From contig NZ_QUBR01000002.1 in NCBI RefSeq assembly GCF_003586285.1, positions 868,001 through 932,000 of the forward strand: 64,000 nt of DNA, in the 5' to 3' direction. The notes beneath the pieces are model-generated. The model ran no database searches. It was not told the origin of the DNA and was given only the letters and a program-made list of their open reading frames with translations. The DNA comes from Aeromicrobium endophyticum. Lineage in GTDB: Bacteria; Actinomycetota; Actinomycetes; Propionibacteriales; Nocardioidaceae. Shown here in pieces: positions 5,365-60,696 of this stretch (the stretch's first letter is position 1; each line of letters begins with the position of its first letter). The position numbers were made by a program, and so were the translations under genes.

Positions 5365-6090
5365 CTAGGGCGTCGTGGTCGGTTGGTCGGGCGCGCTGAC
5401 GTCGTAGCGGGACGCCTCGAGGCGCAGCAGCGGGGTGAGCACCTGCAGCTTGCGACCGCCGTCGTCCCTGCTCCCCCACACGACGGTCCGCCCCTTGGTG
5501 AGCTTGAGCTCGATCGAGTCCTTGCTGGAGGCGGTGACCGACTCGACCTGCTCGCGCAGACCGGGGTCCTTGCGGCCGATCAGCGTGACGACCGAGGCGA
5601 GCGACTCGGCCGTCTGCAGCCGGTCGCGCGCGTCGGTGACGTCGATCGTGGCCTCGAGCAGGCCCTTCGGCGGCGAGCCGTACGAGCGGAAGGCGATGCC
5701 GTTGCGGTCGATGCCGCGGATCTGGCCGTCGACGCGCGCCCAGACCACGGACTTGCGCTCGACGATCGAGATCGAGATCGTGTGGGGCCACGAGCGTCCC
5801 ACCTCGACGGTGTCGACCCGGTCGAGCCCGGAGACGCGCTGCTCGATCGCGCCGACGTCGACGCGGGCCAGGGGACGTCCCTGCGGCACCTGCGCGACGC
5901 GCAGCACCTGCGCCTGCTTGAGCGTCGTGCGCCCCGACACCTCCACGTCTCGCACCGCCAGGACGCTCGAGAACCACACCATCCATGCCAGGGCCCCGAG
6001 GGCGGCGACGACCAGCACGCCCAGGGCGACGCGAAAGTACCGTCGGCGACGCTCGGCGCGGCTTCTCTCGGAGAACCGCTCCGCGGTCAT
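5365..6090 (-). CDS. ftsQ: Cell division protein FtsQ
   Basis: A 241-aa bitopic divisome protein: a basic cytoplasmic tail (RSRAERRRRYFR), one membrane segment at about 22-44, the POTRA domain starting VRDVEVSGRTTLKQAQVL, and a beta domain containing SWPHTISISIVERKSVVW. It links FtsW/FtsI to the rest of the divisome. The ATG at 6090 overlaps the murC stop by 4 bp. The frame stays open far upstream, but that part is the shadow of murC. Confidence 0.93.
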   Translation of the reverse strand: MTAERFSERSRAERRRRYFRVALGVLVVAALGALAWMVWFSSVLAVRDVEVSGRTTLKQAQVLRVAQVPQGRPLARVDVGAIEQRVSGLDRVDTVEVGRSWPHTISISIVERKSVVWARVDGQIRGIDRNGIAFRSYGSPPKGLLEATIDVTDARDRLQTAESLASVVTLIGRKDPGLREQVESVTASSKDSIELKLTKGRTVVWGSRDDGGRKLQVLTPLLRLEASRYDVSAPDQPTTTP

Positions 6091-7481
6091 CCCAGGGCCT
6101 CGAGCACCGCCGGGCCGACCGTCGTGATGTCGCCCGCCCCGAGGGTCAGCAGCAGGTCGCCGGGGAGCAGCTCGCGCACGAGCACGTCGGCCAGCCCCGC
6201 GACGGGGCCTCCGAGCATCGCCCGCGGCCCCTGGACGGCGGCGACCACCAGGGCCGAGGTGACCTCGGGATCGGCATCCTCGCGCGCGAGGTAGATGTCG
6301 GCCACGACCACCATGTCGGCCGCCGAGAGCGCTCGGCCCATCTCGGCGCCGTAGACACGGGTGCGGCTGACCAGGTGCGGCTGGTACGCCACCACGAGCC
6401 GGCCGGTGCCCGCGACGGCCCGGGCCGCCGCGAGGTCGGCAGCGATCTCGGTCGGGTGGTGCGCGTAGGAGTCGTACACCCGCACTCCCCCGGCCTCGCC
6501 GAGCGGCTGCATGCGCCGGTTGGCTCCTGTGTAGGCCGCAAGACCCGCGATCAGCAGGTCGACGTTCTGGTCGAGCAGCAGACCCGTGCCGAGCGCGAGC
6601 AGCGCGTCGAGCGCGTAGTGCGCGCCGGGGACGGCCAGCTCGACGGGCCCGAGGTCGACACCGCGCAGCGACGCGGAGAACGTCGTGGTCGTGCCCTCGA
6701 CGACCAGGTGGTGGCCGCGCAGGTCGGCGTCCTCGGAGAAGCCTGCCGTCATGACCTCGAGGCCGGCCGCCCGGGCGGTGCGCGCGAGTGCCTGCGTCCC
6801 GGGGTCGTCGGCGCTCAGCACGACGAACCGCTGGATGCGCGAGACGAACTCGTCGAAGGCCGCCGCGTACGCCTCGACCGTGCCGTAGTTGTCGAGGTGG
6901 TCGGCGTCGACGTTGGTGACGACCGCTCCCTCCGGCTCGTAGACCAGGAAGGCGCCGTCGCTCTCGTCCGCCTCGGCCACCAGCAGGTCGCCCGAGCCGA
7001 GCCGCGCGTTGGCGCCGAGGCTCGCGACCTCGGCCCCGATCGCGTACGACGGCTCGGCGCCCGCGGCGATCAGGGCGCACGTCAGCATCGCGGTGGTGGT
7101 CGTCTTGCCGTGGGTGCCGGCCACCGCGATCGTGCGCCGCCCCTCCATGACCGAGCGCAGGCCCGCCGAGCGGGGCCACAGCCGCAGGCCGCGCCGCAGC
7201 GCCTCGACGATCTCGGGGTTGTCGTCGCGGACCGCGGTGGAGGCGATGACGGTGTCGACGCCGTCGAGCTGCGACGCGTCGTGCCCGACGTGGCACGTGA
7301 TGCCCTCGGCCCGCAGCGCCGCGACGACGGCCGAGTCGAAGGCGTCGCTGCCACTGACGACCACGCCCTGCTGCGCCATGAGCCGCGCGATGGCCGACAG
7401 ACCGGCACCGCCGATGCCGATGAAGTGGACGTGGCCCAGCTCGCCCACCGGCGGGATGTGGGCGGGAACCTCGATCTTCAC
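6087..7481 (-). CDS. murC: UDP-N-acetylmuramate-L-alanine ligase MurC
   Basis: Adds L-Ala to UDP-MurNAc in the cytoplasm. The 464-aa protein has the N-terminal IGIGGAGLSAIARLM motif, the ATP loop AGTHGKTTTTAML (about residue 110), DADHLDNYG, and DSYAHHPTEI in the C-terminal domain. The GTG at 7481 is preceded by GGAGG at 7 nt and overlaps the stop of a 28-codon mini-ORF by 4 nt. An earlier in-frame start would lie inside that mini-ORF's repeat. The tandem 83-bp duplication just upstream repeats this ribosome-binding site. Confidence 0.97.
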   Translation of the reverse strand: MKIEVPAHIPPVGELGHVHFIGIGGAGLSAIARLMAQQGVVVSGSDAFDSAVVAALRAEGITCHVGHDASQLDGVDTVIASTAVRDDNPEIVEALRRGLRLWPRSAGLRSVMEGRRTIAVAGTHGKTTTTAMLTCALIAAGAEPSYAIGAEVASLGANARLGSGDLLVAEADESDGAFLVYEPEGAVVTNVDADHLDNYGTVEAYAAAFDEFVSRIQRFVVLSADDPGTQALARTARAAGLEVMTAGFSEDADLRGHHLVVEGTTTTFSASLRGVDLGPVELAVPGAHYALDALLALGTGLLLDQNVDLLIAGLAAYTGANRRMQPLGEAGGVRVYDSYAHHPTEIAADLAAARAVAGTGRLVVAYQPHLVSRTRVYGAEMGRALSAADMVVVADIYLAREDADPEVTSALVVAAVQGPRAMLGGPVAGLADVLVRELLPGDLLLTLGAGDITTVGPAVLEALG

Positions 7482-7564
7482 GCCGTCACCTCCGAGGAAG
7501 AGCAAGAGTACGGAGCCGACGGCGCGAACCGGCACCCATGGTTCGTTCGCTGGCGCTCACTCAC
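7478..7564 (-). CDS. 28-aa mini-ORF A, coupled to murC
   Basis: A 29-codon frame (GTG to TGA) whose peptide begins V/MSERQRTNHGCRFAPSAPY and ends SSSEVTA. Its start overlaps the stop of mini-ORF B (GTGA) and its stop overlaps the murC start (GTGA). It carries GGAGG 7 nt before the murC start. It is one of two tandem copies differing at two bases, both changing the peptide. A protein of the same length and pattern lies before pspA. Whether the peptide matters or only its translation is unknown. Confidence 0.5.
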   Translation of the reverse strand: MSERQRTNHGCRFAPSAPYSCSSSEVTA

Positions 7565-7650
7565 GCCGTCACCTCCGAGAAAGAGCAACAGTACGGAGCC
7601 GACGGCGCGAACCGGCACCCATGGTTCGTTCGCTGGCGCTCACTCACGCC
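7481..7650. repeat. 83-bp tandem duplication between murG and murC
   Basis: Bases 7481-7563 and 7564-7646 are direct repeats with two mismatches, followed by a 4-bp start of a third copy. Each unit contains one 28-codon mini-ORF, a strong GGAGG site and a GTGA stop-start junction. The arrangement keeps translational coupling intact from murG to murC whatever the copy number. Confidence 0.95.
7561..7647 (-). CDS. 28-aa mini-ORF B, coupled to murG
   Basis: Second copy of the 29-codon unit, with peptide start V/MSERQRTNHGCRFAPSAPY and end CCSFSEVTA. The GTG start at 7647 overlaps the murG stop by 4 nt and its own stop overlaps the start of mini-ORF A by 4 nt. Compared with A, Ser-20 becomes Cys and Ser-23 becomes Phe. 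No known domain. Confidence 0.5.
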   Translation of the reverse strand: MSERQRTNHGCRFAPSAPYCCSFSEVTA

Positions 7651-8720
7651 TCTCCCCCGGCCTCTCGGATCATGGCGGCGAGCTTCTCGTCGGCGTCGCG
7701 GGCCACGATGCCCGAGGCGGCGCGCGACATCGCCGCGAGGCGGCCTTCGTGCGAGACGAGCGGGATGACGACGTTGTCGATCCACGCCGGTGTGAGGGCG
7801 GCGTCGTCGATCAGCAGCCCGCCGCCGGCGCGCACCACCGGATGAGCGTTGTGCGCCTGCTCGCCGTTGCCGATGGGCAGCGGGACGAAGGCGGCGGGCA
7901 GCCCCACGGCGGCCACCTCGGTGACGGTGTTGGCACCGGCCCGGCACACGATCAGGTCGGCGGCGGCGTAGGCCAGGTCCATGCGGTCGATGAACGGCAC
8001 CACGACGTACGGCGGGTCGCCCGCGCGCGGGTTGAGGGCGACCTCGTCGGGGCGTCCTGCCGCGTGCAGCACCTGCACGCCGGCATCGGCCAGGTCGCGC
8101 GCTGCCGCCGACACCGCGTGGTTGATGCGCCGCGCGCCCTGGGAGCCGCCCGTGACCAGCAGCGTCGGGCGATCGGGGTCGAGCCCGAAGAACTCGCGCG
8201 CCTCGGCCCGCAGGGCCGCCCGGTCGAGACGCGAGATCTCGCGCCGGATCGGCAGGCCGATGAAGCGCCCGTGCCGCAGGTCGGTGTCGGGGAAGCTGGT
8301 GGCCACGTGACGCGTGAAGCGCGCGCCCAGCTTGTTGGCGATGCCCGGGATGGCATTGCCCTCGTGCACCACCAGAGGGATGCCACGGCGACGAGCCACC
8401 AGGTAGGCCGGCACCGAGACGTAGCCGCCGAAGCCCACGATCACGTCGGGCCGCACGCGGTCGACGACCTCGCCCGTGGCCTTGACCGCGGCGGTGAGCC
8501 TGCCCGGCACCTGCACCATCGCCTTGCCGGGGCGACGCGGCAGCGGCACGGGCGGGACGAGCTCGAGCGGGTAGCCCGCCTGCGGGATCAACGTCACCTC
8601 GAGGCCGCGCGGCGTGCCGAGGCACGTGATGTCGTCACCGGCGTCGGCCAGCACGGCGGCGGTCGCGAGCAGGGGCGAGGTGTGGCCGGCGGTCCCCCCG
8701 CCGGCGAGCAGCACGCGCAC
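7644..8720 (-). CDS. murG: UDP-GlcNAc: lipid I GlcNAc transferase MurG
   Basis: Peripheral membrane glycosyltransferase that turns lipid I into lipid II. The 358-aa protein shows the N-terminal glycine-rich loop AGGGTAGHTSPLLA, the lipid-facing VIGFGGYVSVPA-type segment, GGSQGARRIN around residue 190, and the donor-site stretch CRAGANTVTEVAAVG. It starts 3 bp after ftsW and its stop is fused to the first mini-ORF. The C-terminal IREAGGEA is the normal end, so the duplication does not damage the gene. Confidence 0.97.
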   Translation of the reverse strand: MRVLLAGGGTAGHTSPLLATAAVLADAGDDITCLGTPRGLEVTLIPQAGYPLELVPPVPLPRRPGKAMVQVPGRLTAAVKATGEVVDRVRPDVIVGFGGYVSVPAYLVARRRGIPLVVHEGNAIPGIANKLGARFTRHVATSFPDTDLRHGRFIGLPIRREISRLDRAALRAEAREFFGLDPDRPTLLVTGGSQGARRINHAVSAAARDLADAGVQVLHAAGRPDEVALNPRAGDPPYVVVPFIDRMDLAYAAADLIVCRAGANTVTEVAAVGLPAAFVPLPIGNGEQAHNAHPVVRAGGGLLIDDAALTPAWIDNVVIPLVSHEGRLAAMSRAASGIVARDADEKLAAMIREAGGEA

Positions 8721-49648: not shown

Positions 49649-49709
49649 TCGTCGTCGCCAGCACCCAGCCCCGCCAGCAGGCAGAGGCCATGGCCGACCC
49701 ACCCCAGGA
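49649..49709. other. Spacer between the qcrB terminator and the palindromic repeats
   Basis: 61 bp with no recognisable signal; together with the repeats it makes a 376-bp gene-free gap between the convergent qcrB and L,D-transpeptidase genes. Confidence 0.5.
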
Positions 49710-49936
49710 CGTCATCACATCAGTACCTGAGCTGCCGCATCCGTGATGACGCCCAGGGGCCACCTCGGTACGTCATCACATCAGTACCTGCGCTGCCGCA
49801 TCCGTGATGACGTCCACGGGTCCACCTCGGTACGTCATCACATCAGTACCTGCGCTGCCGCATCCGTGATGACGTCCACGGGTCCACCTCGGTACGTCAT
49901 CACGTCAGTACGCGCGCTGCGTCATCCGTGATGACG
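49710..49936. repeat. Four tandem copies of the 42-bp palindromic element
   Basis: Copies at 49710-49751, 49771-49812, 49833-49874 and 49895-49936, each exactly 42 bp with termini CGTCATCAC / GTGATGACG, separated by 19-20 bp spacers that are nearly identical to each other (ccacctcggta in all). The period is 61-62 bp. Copies 2 and 3 also fold an inner TGCG-CTGC-CGCA stem; copy 4 has diverged most. The same element occurs once at 17601. The sites lie between convergent genes. Confidence 0.95.
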
Positions 49937-49975
49937 TACCCCACTCCCCCACCGGACGGCTGGGGCGGGCCTGAG

Positions 49976-58993: not shown

Positions 58994-59904
58994 CAGCCCT
59001 GCTCGGAGAGCTCGGCGCTGACCTTGGCCAGCTGGTCGAGGCGCTGCTGCAGCGGCGGGTGCGTCGAGAACAGCGCACCGATCGACTCGCGGTTGATCGC
59101 GGGGGCGAAGAAGAAGGCGCTCATCGCCTGGCTCTCGCGCAGGTCGCTGTTGGGGATGCGGGCCATGTCGCCCGAGATCTTCACCAGCGCCGACGACAGC
59201 TTCGACGGGCGACCCGTCATGTAGGCGCCGCTGCGGTCGGCGCTGAGCTCGCGGTAGCGCGACAGCCCTCGGATGAGCACGAAGCTGACGGCGTAGACCA
59301 CGAGGCTGACGAGGAAGACCACGATGAACGCCGGTCCGCCGTTGCTGTTGTTGTTGCGATCGCGTCCGCCGCCGAACATCCCACCGAAGTACATGCCGTA
59401 TCGCGTGATGAAGCCCGCCAGCAGACCGATCGACGAGGCCACCGTCATGACCGTGACGTCGCGGTTGGCGACGTGCGACAGCTCGTGGGCCAGCACGCCC
59501 TCGAGCTCGTCGGCGTCGAGGCGCTGCATGATGCCGGTCGTGACGCAGACGGCCGAGTGGTTCGGCGTGCGCCCGGTGGCGAAGGCGTTGGGCATGTCGG
59601 TGACGGCGATCGCCACGCGCGGCTTGGGCATGTCGGCCAGTGCGCACAGCCGGTCGATCATGGCGTGCAGCTCGGGCGCCTGGTGCGGCTCGACCACCTG
59701 GGCCCGCATCGACTTCAGCGCCAGGGAGTCCGAGAAGTACCACTGCCCCCAGGCCATCGCCAGGACGACGACGAACCCGACAGCGCCCAAGGCCGTCTGG
59801 TAGAGCACCGCCGCGAACAGCAGGTAGAGCACGCCCAACCCGAGGCTCACGCCGCCCATGCGCAGCGAGAGCCCGCGATCAGTCCTGAAGCGGCTTCGCG
59901 CCAT
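58993..59904 (-). CDS. htpX: Membrane zinc protease HtpX
   Basis: Cleaves misfolded membrane proteins under stress. The 303-aa protein has membrane helices at about 15-55 and 155-200, zinc motif LAHELSHVANRD near 139, third ligand in RYRELSADRSGAYMTG, and the FSTHPPLQQRLDQL end. The ATG at 59904 overlaps the pspA end by 26 bp. A longer frame upstream is a pspA shadow. Confidence 0.95.
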   Translation of the reverse strand: MARSRFRTDRGLSLRMGGVSLGLGVLYLLFAAVLYQTALGAVGFVVVLAMAWGQWYFSDSLALKSMRAQVVEPHQAPELHAMIDRLCALADMPKPRVAIAVTDMPNAFATGRTPNHSAVCVTTGIMQRLDADELEGVLAHELSHVANRDVTVMTVASSIGLLAGFITRYGMYFGGMFGGGRDRNNNSNGGPAFIVVFLVSLVVYAVSFVLIRGLSRYRELSADRSGAYMTGRPSKLSSALVKISGDMARIPNSDLRESQAMSAFFFAPAINRESIGALFSTHPPLQQRLDQLAKVSAELSEQG

Positions 59905-60613
59905 CGTCACCCTCCTGCTGCTCGTCCGGCCGAGCGATCTGCTCGAGCTGGCGGTCGACCTCGGGGCCGTCGAGCGCCGCGTCGAACTGGCGGGCCAGCC
60001 GCTCGTCGGCCGTCTCGCCCGTCGTGCCCACGACTCCCTCGGCGACGAGCTCGTCGACGGCGTCGGACGTCGCCTCCATCTCACGGGTGCGACGCTCGGC
60101 CGCCTCCATCGCCTGCCCGACGTCGCTCACGGTCGAGTTGATGCCGCTGGTCGCGCTGTTGATCTCGGCCCGCGCCGACGCCGCGGTGTGCCGCGCCGAC
60201 AGCGTGTCCTTGCGCACCCGGAAGCTCGCGACGTCCTGCTCGATGGTGTCGGCCGACAGCTCGAGCTTGCGCTCCTGGGCGAGCAGGTCGTCGCGCTGGG
60301 TGCGCAGGTCGGCGGCGGTCTTGTCGAGGGCGACCTTGCGCGTCAGTGCGGCGCGGGCGTCGTCGTCGCGTCCGGCGGCGACGGCATCGGAGGCCTGCTG
60401 GTCGAGCTGCGCCGCCTGCTGGGCGAGCGTCGCCAGCTGGAGGTCGACGCGCTTGCGGCTGGTCTGGACGTCGGCGACCCCGCGGCGGACCTGCTGCAGC
60501 AGCGCGGTCTGGGTGCGGTACGTCTCGTCGAGGCGCTCCTTGAGGGCCCCCGTGTCGTCGCCCCCCGCACTGCGCGAATGCCACCACTTCGCGAGGCGAT
60601 CACCGATGCTCAT
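59879..60613 (-). CDS. pspA: Phage-shock protein A (PspA/IM30 family)
   Basis: Forms oligomeric coats on stressed membranes. The 244-aa protein is almost all coiled coil after the start MSIGDRLAKWWHS, ending in an acidic low-complexity tail. The family pattern (amphipathic helix 0 plus long coiled coil) and the HtpX/PspAB neighbours support the call. The ATG at 60613 overlaps the stop of an upstream 28-codon mini-ORF by 4 nt (ATGA), so pspA is probably translated by coupling. Confidence 0.88.
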   Translation of the reverse strand: MSIGDRLAKWWHSRSAGGDDTGALKERLDETYRTQTALLQQVRRGVADVQTSRKRVDLQLATLAQQAAQLDQQASDAVAAGRDDDARAALTRKVALDKTAADLRTQRDDLLAQERKLELSADTIEQDVASFRVRKDTLSARHTAASARAEINSATSGINSTVSDVGQAMEAAERRTREMEATSDAVDELVAEGVVGTTGETADERLARQFDAALDGPEVDRQLEQIARPDEQQEGDDGAKPLQD

Positions 60614-60696
60614 GGTGTCCGTCCCGAGGAAGGGGCACGATACGGAACGGCCACCACGACACGGTGCACATCGTTCACTCGCTGACGCTCGCTCAT
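60610..60696 (-). CDS. 28-aa mini-ORF C, coupled to pspA
   Basis: A 29-codon frame, ATG to TGA, whose stop overlaps the pspA start by 4 nt. The peptide begins MSERQRVNDVHRVVVAVPYR and ends APSSGRTP; it has the same length as the murG-murC mini-ORFs and shares SERQR, N8, R12, PY, S24 and T27 with them. TAGGCT lies 7 nt before its ATG, so the pspA operon transcript probably begins exactly here. No SD is needed for it, and pspA would rely on coupling. Confidence 0.5.
   Translation of the reverse strand: MSERQRVNDVHRVVVAVPYRAPSSGRTP

Follow-up and report, generated by a model that had tools for sequence, protein, structure and literature searches.

The closest described systems are the mycobacterial MIRUs. 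In the cited passages, they are units of 40 to 100 bp that occur both in tandem and dispersed, at 41 places (PMC2734929), with unit lengths of 77 and 53 bp and a varying copy number (PMC4213456, PMC2453075). They are also described there as apparently mobile, as inserting at start codons, and as coupling an internal ORF at a spacing of −4 nt (PMC12548453, citing Supply et al. 1997).

The element described here, from Aeromicrobium endophyticum and its congeners, resembles MIRUs in several respects. Its units are short, mostly 80 or 83 bp, and are both dispersed and arranged in tandem arrays of two to four; they lie at start codons, in the same orientation as the gene downstream, with an ORF arrangement at −4 nt that suggests coupling. 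The unit lengths are 2 mod 3 in both cases (80, 83, 77, 62, and 50 bp in Aeromicrobium; 77 and 53 bp for the MIRUs of the passages cited above), so copies can be added in phase. The Aeromicrobium element differs in its occurrence in another genus and order, in its presence also at leaderless-type starts, and in having a head motif and two covarying hairpins, whereas MIRUs reportedly lack dyad symmetry. Because the two are likened by description and not by sequence, and because the hairpins contradict what is said of MIRUs, the element can be said to work like a MIRU but is not filed as one. A literature search, judged on titles and abstract openings, found no description of the Aeromicrobium family. 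The hairpin-bearing family looks new, and the kind of element looks already known from mycobacteria.

The window analyzed is a stretch of 64,000 nucleotides of the A. endophyticum genome (G000), in which two mini-ORFs separate murG from murC. The best explanation as a whole, with a probability of roughly 0.85, is that these mini-ORFs are tandem units of a small, presumably non-autonomous dispersed element, which would have inserted directly after an RTGA tetramer serving as a gene's start codon and which leads through a chain of mini-ORFs into the displaced gene.

The murG-murC junction and its empty counterparts

The junction lies on the minus strand, in a cluster that we take to be murD, ftsW, murG, murC, ftsQ, and ftsZ; within it, the identities of murG and murC are backed by the MurG search and by the reading of the junction in congeners. 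Between murG (7644 to 8720, with its stop at 7646 to 7644) and murC (6087 to 7481) sit two 83-bp direct repeats, copy B at 7561 to 7643 and copy A at 7478 to 7560, which are 98% identical (TRF score of 332) and differ at two bases. With the upstream GTGA of each (7644 to 7647 for B and 7561 to 7564 for A), the copies span 7561 to 7647 and 7478 to 7564. Each forms a reading frame from GTG to TGA that encodes 28 amino acids (29 codons with the stop, 87 nt), with the peptide VSERQRTNHGCRFAPSAPYCCSFSEVTA in mini-ORF B (7647 to 7561) and VSERQRTNHGCRFAPSAPYSCSSSEVTA in mini-ORF A (7564 to 7478), and the two base differences replace C by S and F by S. Three 4-nt GTGA overlaps chain murG, mini-ORF B, mini-ORF A, and murC together: the TGA of murG overlaps the GTG of mini-ORF B, and the GTG start of murC (7481) lies within the last GTGA of copy A. 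Both units terminate in GGAGGTGACGGC, directly 5' of the next GTGA. The 19-nt head motif, with up to three mismatches allowed, has no occurrence in the window other than these two (shuffled mean of 0.10). A preliminary description of the locus had reported the duplicated 83-bp unit, the three GTGA junctions, and the GTG-to-TGA frames, all of which are confirmed exactly from the ORFs and repeats. The 28 and the 29 codons given there are one and the same frame, and its statements that both base differences alter the peptide and that each unit carries its own Shine-Dalgarno site are borne out by the substitutions and unit ends given above.

MurG was matched in 49 of 49 genomes of the genus, and the murG/murC junction was read at 30 loci, one from A. 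endophyticum and 29 from congeners. Every one of the 29 congeners shows a direct murG/murC overlap at an RTGA; the two closest relatives in MurG (94% and 93%) have an empty site. The distance from the murG stop to the FIGIGG-type motif of MurC is 53 nt in 28 congeners and 219 nt in A. endophyticum, which equals 53 + 2 × 83; the 29th congener (G063), whose sequence ends inside murC, was left out of this count and has an identical junction. The direct overlap in 29 of 29 congeners therefore shows that 166 bp were inserted at the GTGA in A. endophyticum. Most likely, the tandem pair arose from one insertion by duplication of the 83-bp unit.

The empty sites and the in-phase units support the earlier proposal of an inserted translational-coupling cassette, with the coupling deduced from anatomy and comparison; none of the 29 congeners has a gap of equal length in which the frames are broken. 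The proposal, made with no described element of this kind known at this site, needs some correction. The element is not specific to the site, being a member of a dispersed family, and its kind is known from the mycobacterial MIRUs, as far as the cited part of PMC12548453 describes them. The search for further copies that had been proposed finds the unit throughout the genome and in 44 of 49 Aeromicrobium genomes.

A dispersed family at start codons

A DNA search matched 27 of 58 genomes (26 of 37 from Aeromicrobium and 1 of 21 others), and the named matches of a motif search were all from Aeromicrobium (4/4). A covariance model, R1, was built from aligned copies and scores copy B at 82.3 bits (G000:C2:875561-875647) and copy A at 80.7 bits (G000:C2:875478-875564). 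At an E value of ≤0.01 it yields 747 matches in 44 of the 49 genomes of the genus, with a median of 7 and a maximum of 81 per genome, at up to 92 candidates scored per genome. At the order level it matched 23 of 245 genomes, 21 of them Aeromicrobium, and at the class level 25 of 394, comprising 12 Aeromicrobium and 13 others, the latter weakly.

The genome of A. endophyticum holds 14 copies, 12 of which lie beyond the murG/murC pair, at 11 other places. All 14 extend from RTGA to RTGA with an open mini-ORF that leads into a gene or the next unit. One of them (L111) was counted after its match was lengthened by 3 nt, as was that of L003, and matches weaker than L112 (E value of 0.0097 and up) were left out of the count; those weaker matches that were viewed resemble another G+C-rich repeat or chance. 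This other repeat, found at L116, L117, L119, L120, L122, and L124, has a GAGCGCCAGCGAGCGAAG-like head and no RTGA ends; it often stands after CCATGGG and is in some cases followed by GGGGGCACCTCCCGC-like sequence. Copy number can vary in a VNTR-like manner, with the same locus in two related genomes having four units in G029 (L016) and three in G005 (L017 or L092).

Insertion was read at 90 sites in 72 loci, hand-picked from 103 alignment rows. Before hand-listing, 82 loci had entered, with the murG loci and the weak loci of A. endophyticum left out. Eleven loci that repeat other places were dropped after their identity was checked (L070 to L073, L078, L080, L082, L089, L093, L095, and L139), together with five rows of low score that were antisense or overlapping (L094, L074, L015, L071, and L136, one row per locus). 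The list gained seven tandem partners, and where the model stopped short of the shared RTGA, the ends were lengthened to it. Most loci are the best-scoring match of their genome, which leaves too few weak or decayed copies in the sample.

Downstream, 70 of these sites lead into a gene frame and 19 into the next unit, the remaining one meets an N run, and at 89 of the 90 what follows has the same direction as the element. All 70 gene frames exceed 100 codons, with GC highest at position 3 in 69; as a control, 251 of the 767 RTGA of the window are followed by 100 open codons. None of the 89 readable sites lies at a place without a long frame or a further unit downstream, and a rough gene call of the window counts 108 intergenic non-start RTGA versus 27 start RTGA. 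Either the element aims at starts or insertions elsewhere vanish. The downstream genes belong to unrelated families: besides MurC and IlvN, Pfam matches were obtained for 9 of 10 tested, as follows: GcpE, short-chain dehydrogenase, Usp, MnhE, ResB, ABC transporter, PspA, MerR, and methylmalonyl-CoA mutase. A dedicated regulon was rejected on this ground.

Upstream, 55 sites are preceded by an open frame (minimum of 50 codons) that terminates at the TGA in question, 17 are downstream members of a tandem, and 18 have neither; an "upstream gene" in this sense is a weak label, for which 239 of the 767 RTGA of the window also qualify. Among the 18, two (L019 and L029) are truncated at a contig end or N run, and three (L003, L031, and L129) come directly after ilvB, which ends there in another frame. 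A −10 box of the type TANNNT, such as TAGGCT, shortly before the start codon is characteristic of leaderless-type starts. In a small test, TANNNT occurs 5 to 9 nt before the RTGA at 5 of the 18 sites without an upstream frame, where the distance is about 6 nt, versus 2 of the 55 with one. One of these two is L108, labeled as having an upstream frame although no gene is called there. It is the second copy of the window, a single unit at 60610 to 60696 on the minus strand, at the start of a PspA/IM30-family gene (59879 to 60613), and TAGGCT stands about 7 nt before its ATG. This copy apparently sits at a leaderless start. The same site is filled in G061 and empty in G008 and G012, where the sequence is kept as TAGGCT and reads TACGCT, respectively.

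The ilvB/ilvN junction was read at 30 loci, out of 47 genomes with a match. Twenty are empty (one judged by eye), G000, G008, G004, and G033 have full elements, four have short, remnant-like pieces that keep the frame (a clear case in G011, less clear ones in G005, G029, and G065), and two have an unrelated spacer. The occupancy patterns conflict, with pspA being filled in A. endophyticum and G061 and ilvN in A. endophyticum and G008; loss, recombination, or repeated insertion must therefore occur. At L150, L152, L153, and L154, this junction carries different elements in several Aeromicrobium genomes.

For a dispersed element of this kind, the targeted start could be leaderless or, as at murG/murC, coupled through its overlap with an upstream stop. 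The RTGA at the target would then serve as the start of the mini-ORF, and the terminal Shine-Dalgarno sequence and RTGA of the element itself would provide a new start for the displaced gene, overlapping the mini-ORF stop by 4 nt. Anatomy and comparison suggest that the mini-ORFs are translated and coupled, with reinitiation at each RTGA: ribosomes arriving from murG would translate B, then A, and then reinitiate at murC, and the passing ribosome would melt the hairpin in which the Shine-Dalgarno sequence and start codon are buried. Such a takeover and restoration of start codons would let a tiny element spread through essential operons, seen here outside mycobacteria and with clean empty sites. 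It offers a tractable system for element movement, start-codon targeting, and the carry-over of ribosomes by phased mini-ORFs.

Hairpins, candidate movers, and the reading frame

The element consists, in order, of the RTGA, the head GYGAGCGCCAGCGARY, a variable stretch, and a 3' hairpin. The head forms two short stems with G-A mismatches between them, and the consensus 3' arm of the 3' hairpin is CGGAGGTGACGGC-RTGA, that is, the Shine-Dalgarno sequence and the start codon of the next gene. In copy B, the head hairpin (GTGAGCGCCAGCGAAC, with short stems and G-A/G-A mismatches between them), whose structure was counted on alignments, is located at 7628 to 7643 and the 3' hairpin at 7561 to 7610, both on the minus strand; the 5' arm of the latter is at 7610 to 7594, and its 3' arm at 7577 to 7561 holds CGGAGGTGACGGCGTGA, the Shine-Dalgarno sequence and start of copy A. 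The corresponding minus-strand features of copy A are the head hairpin at 7545 to 7560 and the 3' hairpin at 7478 to 7527, with a 5' arm at 7527 to 7511 and a 3' arm at 7494 to 7478 that contains the Shine-Dalgarno sequence and the murC start codon.

Across 28 copies, 93.2% of the stem cells are paired versus 83.2% in shuffled alignments, and double changes occur at 13 of 20 pairs, a count matched by none of 500 shuffles. A model-fitted alignment of 87 distinct rows, which includes a few antisense matches and leans towards the structure, gives 94.3% versus 81.8%, with double changes at 16 of 20 pairs. The fold of the A. endophyticum unit itself is only moderately better than that of shuffled sequences (z of −1.33; 14 of 200 shuffles as good). 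Within sites, 11 of 41 differences between four equal-length ortholog pairs fall in stems, which are thus not clearly protected; four stem pairs are broken, one is gained, and none is compensated on both sides. One further ortholog (L032, compared with L086) lacks most of the hairpin through an in-frame deletion. The pspA copies of A. endophyticum and G061 differ in the stem, with pairing kept in both (by eye). Strong covariation between copies contrasts with weak covariation within sites, which is read as selection acting mainly while the element moves. The 3' hairpin would block uncoupled initiation, and an added role on the mRNA is possible.

A hairpin that covaries and encloses the Shine-Dalgarno sequence and start codon could also be the function itself, which would make the element a domesticated cis-regulatory RNA (attenuator, thermosensor, or riboswitch), and the preserved pairing of the two pspA copies fits this explanation. 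It is nevertheless unlikely: the downstream genes share no common pathway, the region from 7400 to 7720 has no Rfam match up to an E value of 1, and most genomes read are without the element at murG/murC and ilvB/ilvN. The deletion in L032 and the uncompensated stem changes in the four other ortholog pairs also speak against it.

The mobility of the dispersed element would need a trans-acting enzyme. With a tetramer beside a hairpin at one end, and a hairpin and tetramer at the other, it resembles REP/IS200-IS605-derived elements, which are said to have terminal hairpins beside a tetramer, and a resident Y1 transposase might have moved it in single-stranded form. It differs from them in its phased ORF and start-codon position, and the Y1 transposase family PF01797 matched 0 of 49 genus genomes versus 5 of 14 control genomes; on this result such an origin was rejected, and we give it little credence. 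The IS110 transposase (PF02371) is present in 15 of 49 genus genomes. It was absent from A. endophyticum (15 element matches) and from the element-rich genomes G022 (81, the richest), G062 (35), G027 (33), and G010 (33), and IS110 is not supported as a resident mover. Tentatively, and as a minority reading, the element may belong to an actinobacterial mobile class, with MIRUs maybe one branch, that is aimed at start codons, coupled and leaderless alike, and not merely filtered by selection; its mover would perhaps be RNA-guided or linked to translation and would recognize the covarying end hairpins.

At the 90 sites, the RTGA is present at the beginning in 89 and at the end in 89, and the length is a multiple of three in 87. 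The spanning frame is open at 87 sites, frame 2 at none, and frame 3 at 56, so openness by itself is not rare. Multiples of three (84 or 87 nt) also make up 147 of the 150 genus matches listed, in agreement with the earlier claim that the unit length permits copies to be added in phase; the two lengths may partly be inherited length classes. Of the three exceptions among the 90, one is interrupted by an N run; the other two are each the upstream unit in a tandem pair, and in one of them (L035) the frame continues in phase through the unit that follows. A proper spanning frame is lacking in seven Aeromicrobium copies (L034, L035, and L189 to L193), of which L189 to L193 were fetched on purpose for their odd lengths. 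Among these, L193 reads through the next unit, L190 and L191 stop early, and L189 and L192 stop at a TGA inside the Shine-Dalgarno sequence, 4 nt upstream of the ATGA at the end of the copy. Phase is also kept in copies shortened to 81, 66, 54, and 54 nt.

The open frames and the shared MSERQR... beginning of the peptides would also be expected of a true small-protein gene that was duplicated and encodes a functional peptide of 28 amino acids. In 16 near pairs, however, 69 nonsynonymous and 19 synonymous changes were counted versus 63.8 and 24.2 expected, so that no constraint on the peptide is detectable, and six mini-ORF peptides have no Pfam or NCBIfam match; a conserved small protein was rejected on these results. 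Head variants shorter by one base (GCAGCGA) are compensated elsewhere in L010, L014, L019, and L021, and the middle is therefore read in another frame there, yet open. The common MSERQR can be explained by the conserved DNA of the head hairpin. A functional peptide is thus highly improbable. With no conservation of the peptide, what is preserved is the frame rather than its product, and "MSERQR" ORFs of 26 to 28 amino acids call for further evidence before they are regarded as small proteins. An artefact of assembly or the duplication of an ordinary spacer by simple slippage, which the 98% identity of the two copies might suggest, has a negligible probability, given the relatives without any spacer between murG and murC, the 12 further copies at 11 other places of the same genome, and the recurrence of the family in other assemblies.

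Similar elements in other Actinomycetes

Elements of an MSERSER type were read at 17 places in other Actinomycetes (L142 to L148 and L179 to L188). They share a RTGAGCGAGCGNAGCGAGCGAA-type head with the Aeromicrobium element, have in several cases a predicted 3' hairpin that reaches the start codon, and at 12 of the 17 places contain a spanning mini-ORF into the next gene; the other 5 are degenerate or cut short. They differ in the middle and the apical loop and score weakly with the Aeromicrobium model (best E value of 2.2e-6). The three head motifs have no match in the literature searched, where "MSERSER" was found only in unrelated plant-barcoding work. With a spanning frame at most of the places read, these elements suggest a wider class. 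At two of the places (L148 and L186, from another family of the class), an apparent ilvN follows an element.

Two in-phase lengthened elements of 108 and 126 nt (L194:601-708 and L195:601-726) carry a GGGGGCACC motif within the head hairpin, which gives the impression of two merged repeat families. Elsewhere in the window, at positions 49709 to 49937, a 62-bp unit that contains a ACGTCATCAC...GTGATGACGT inverted repeat occurs 3.7 times in tandem.
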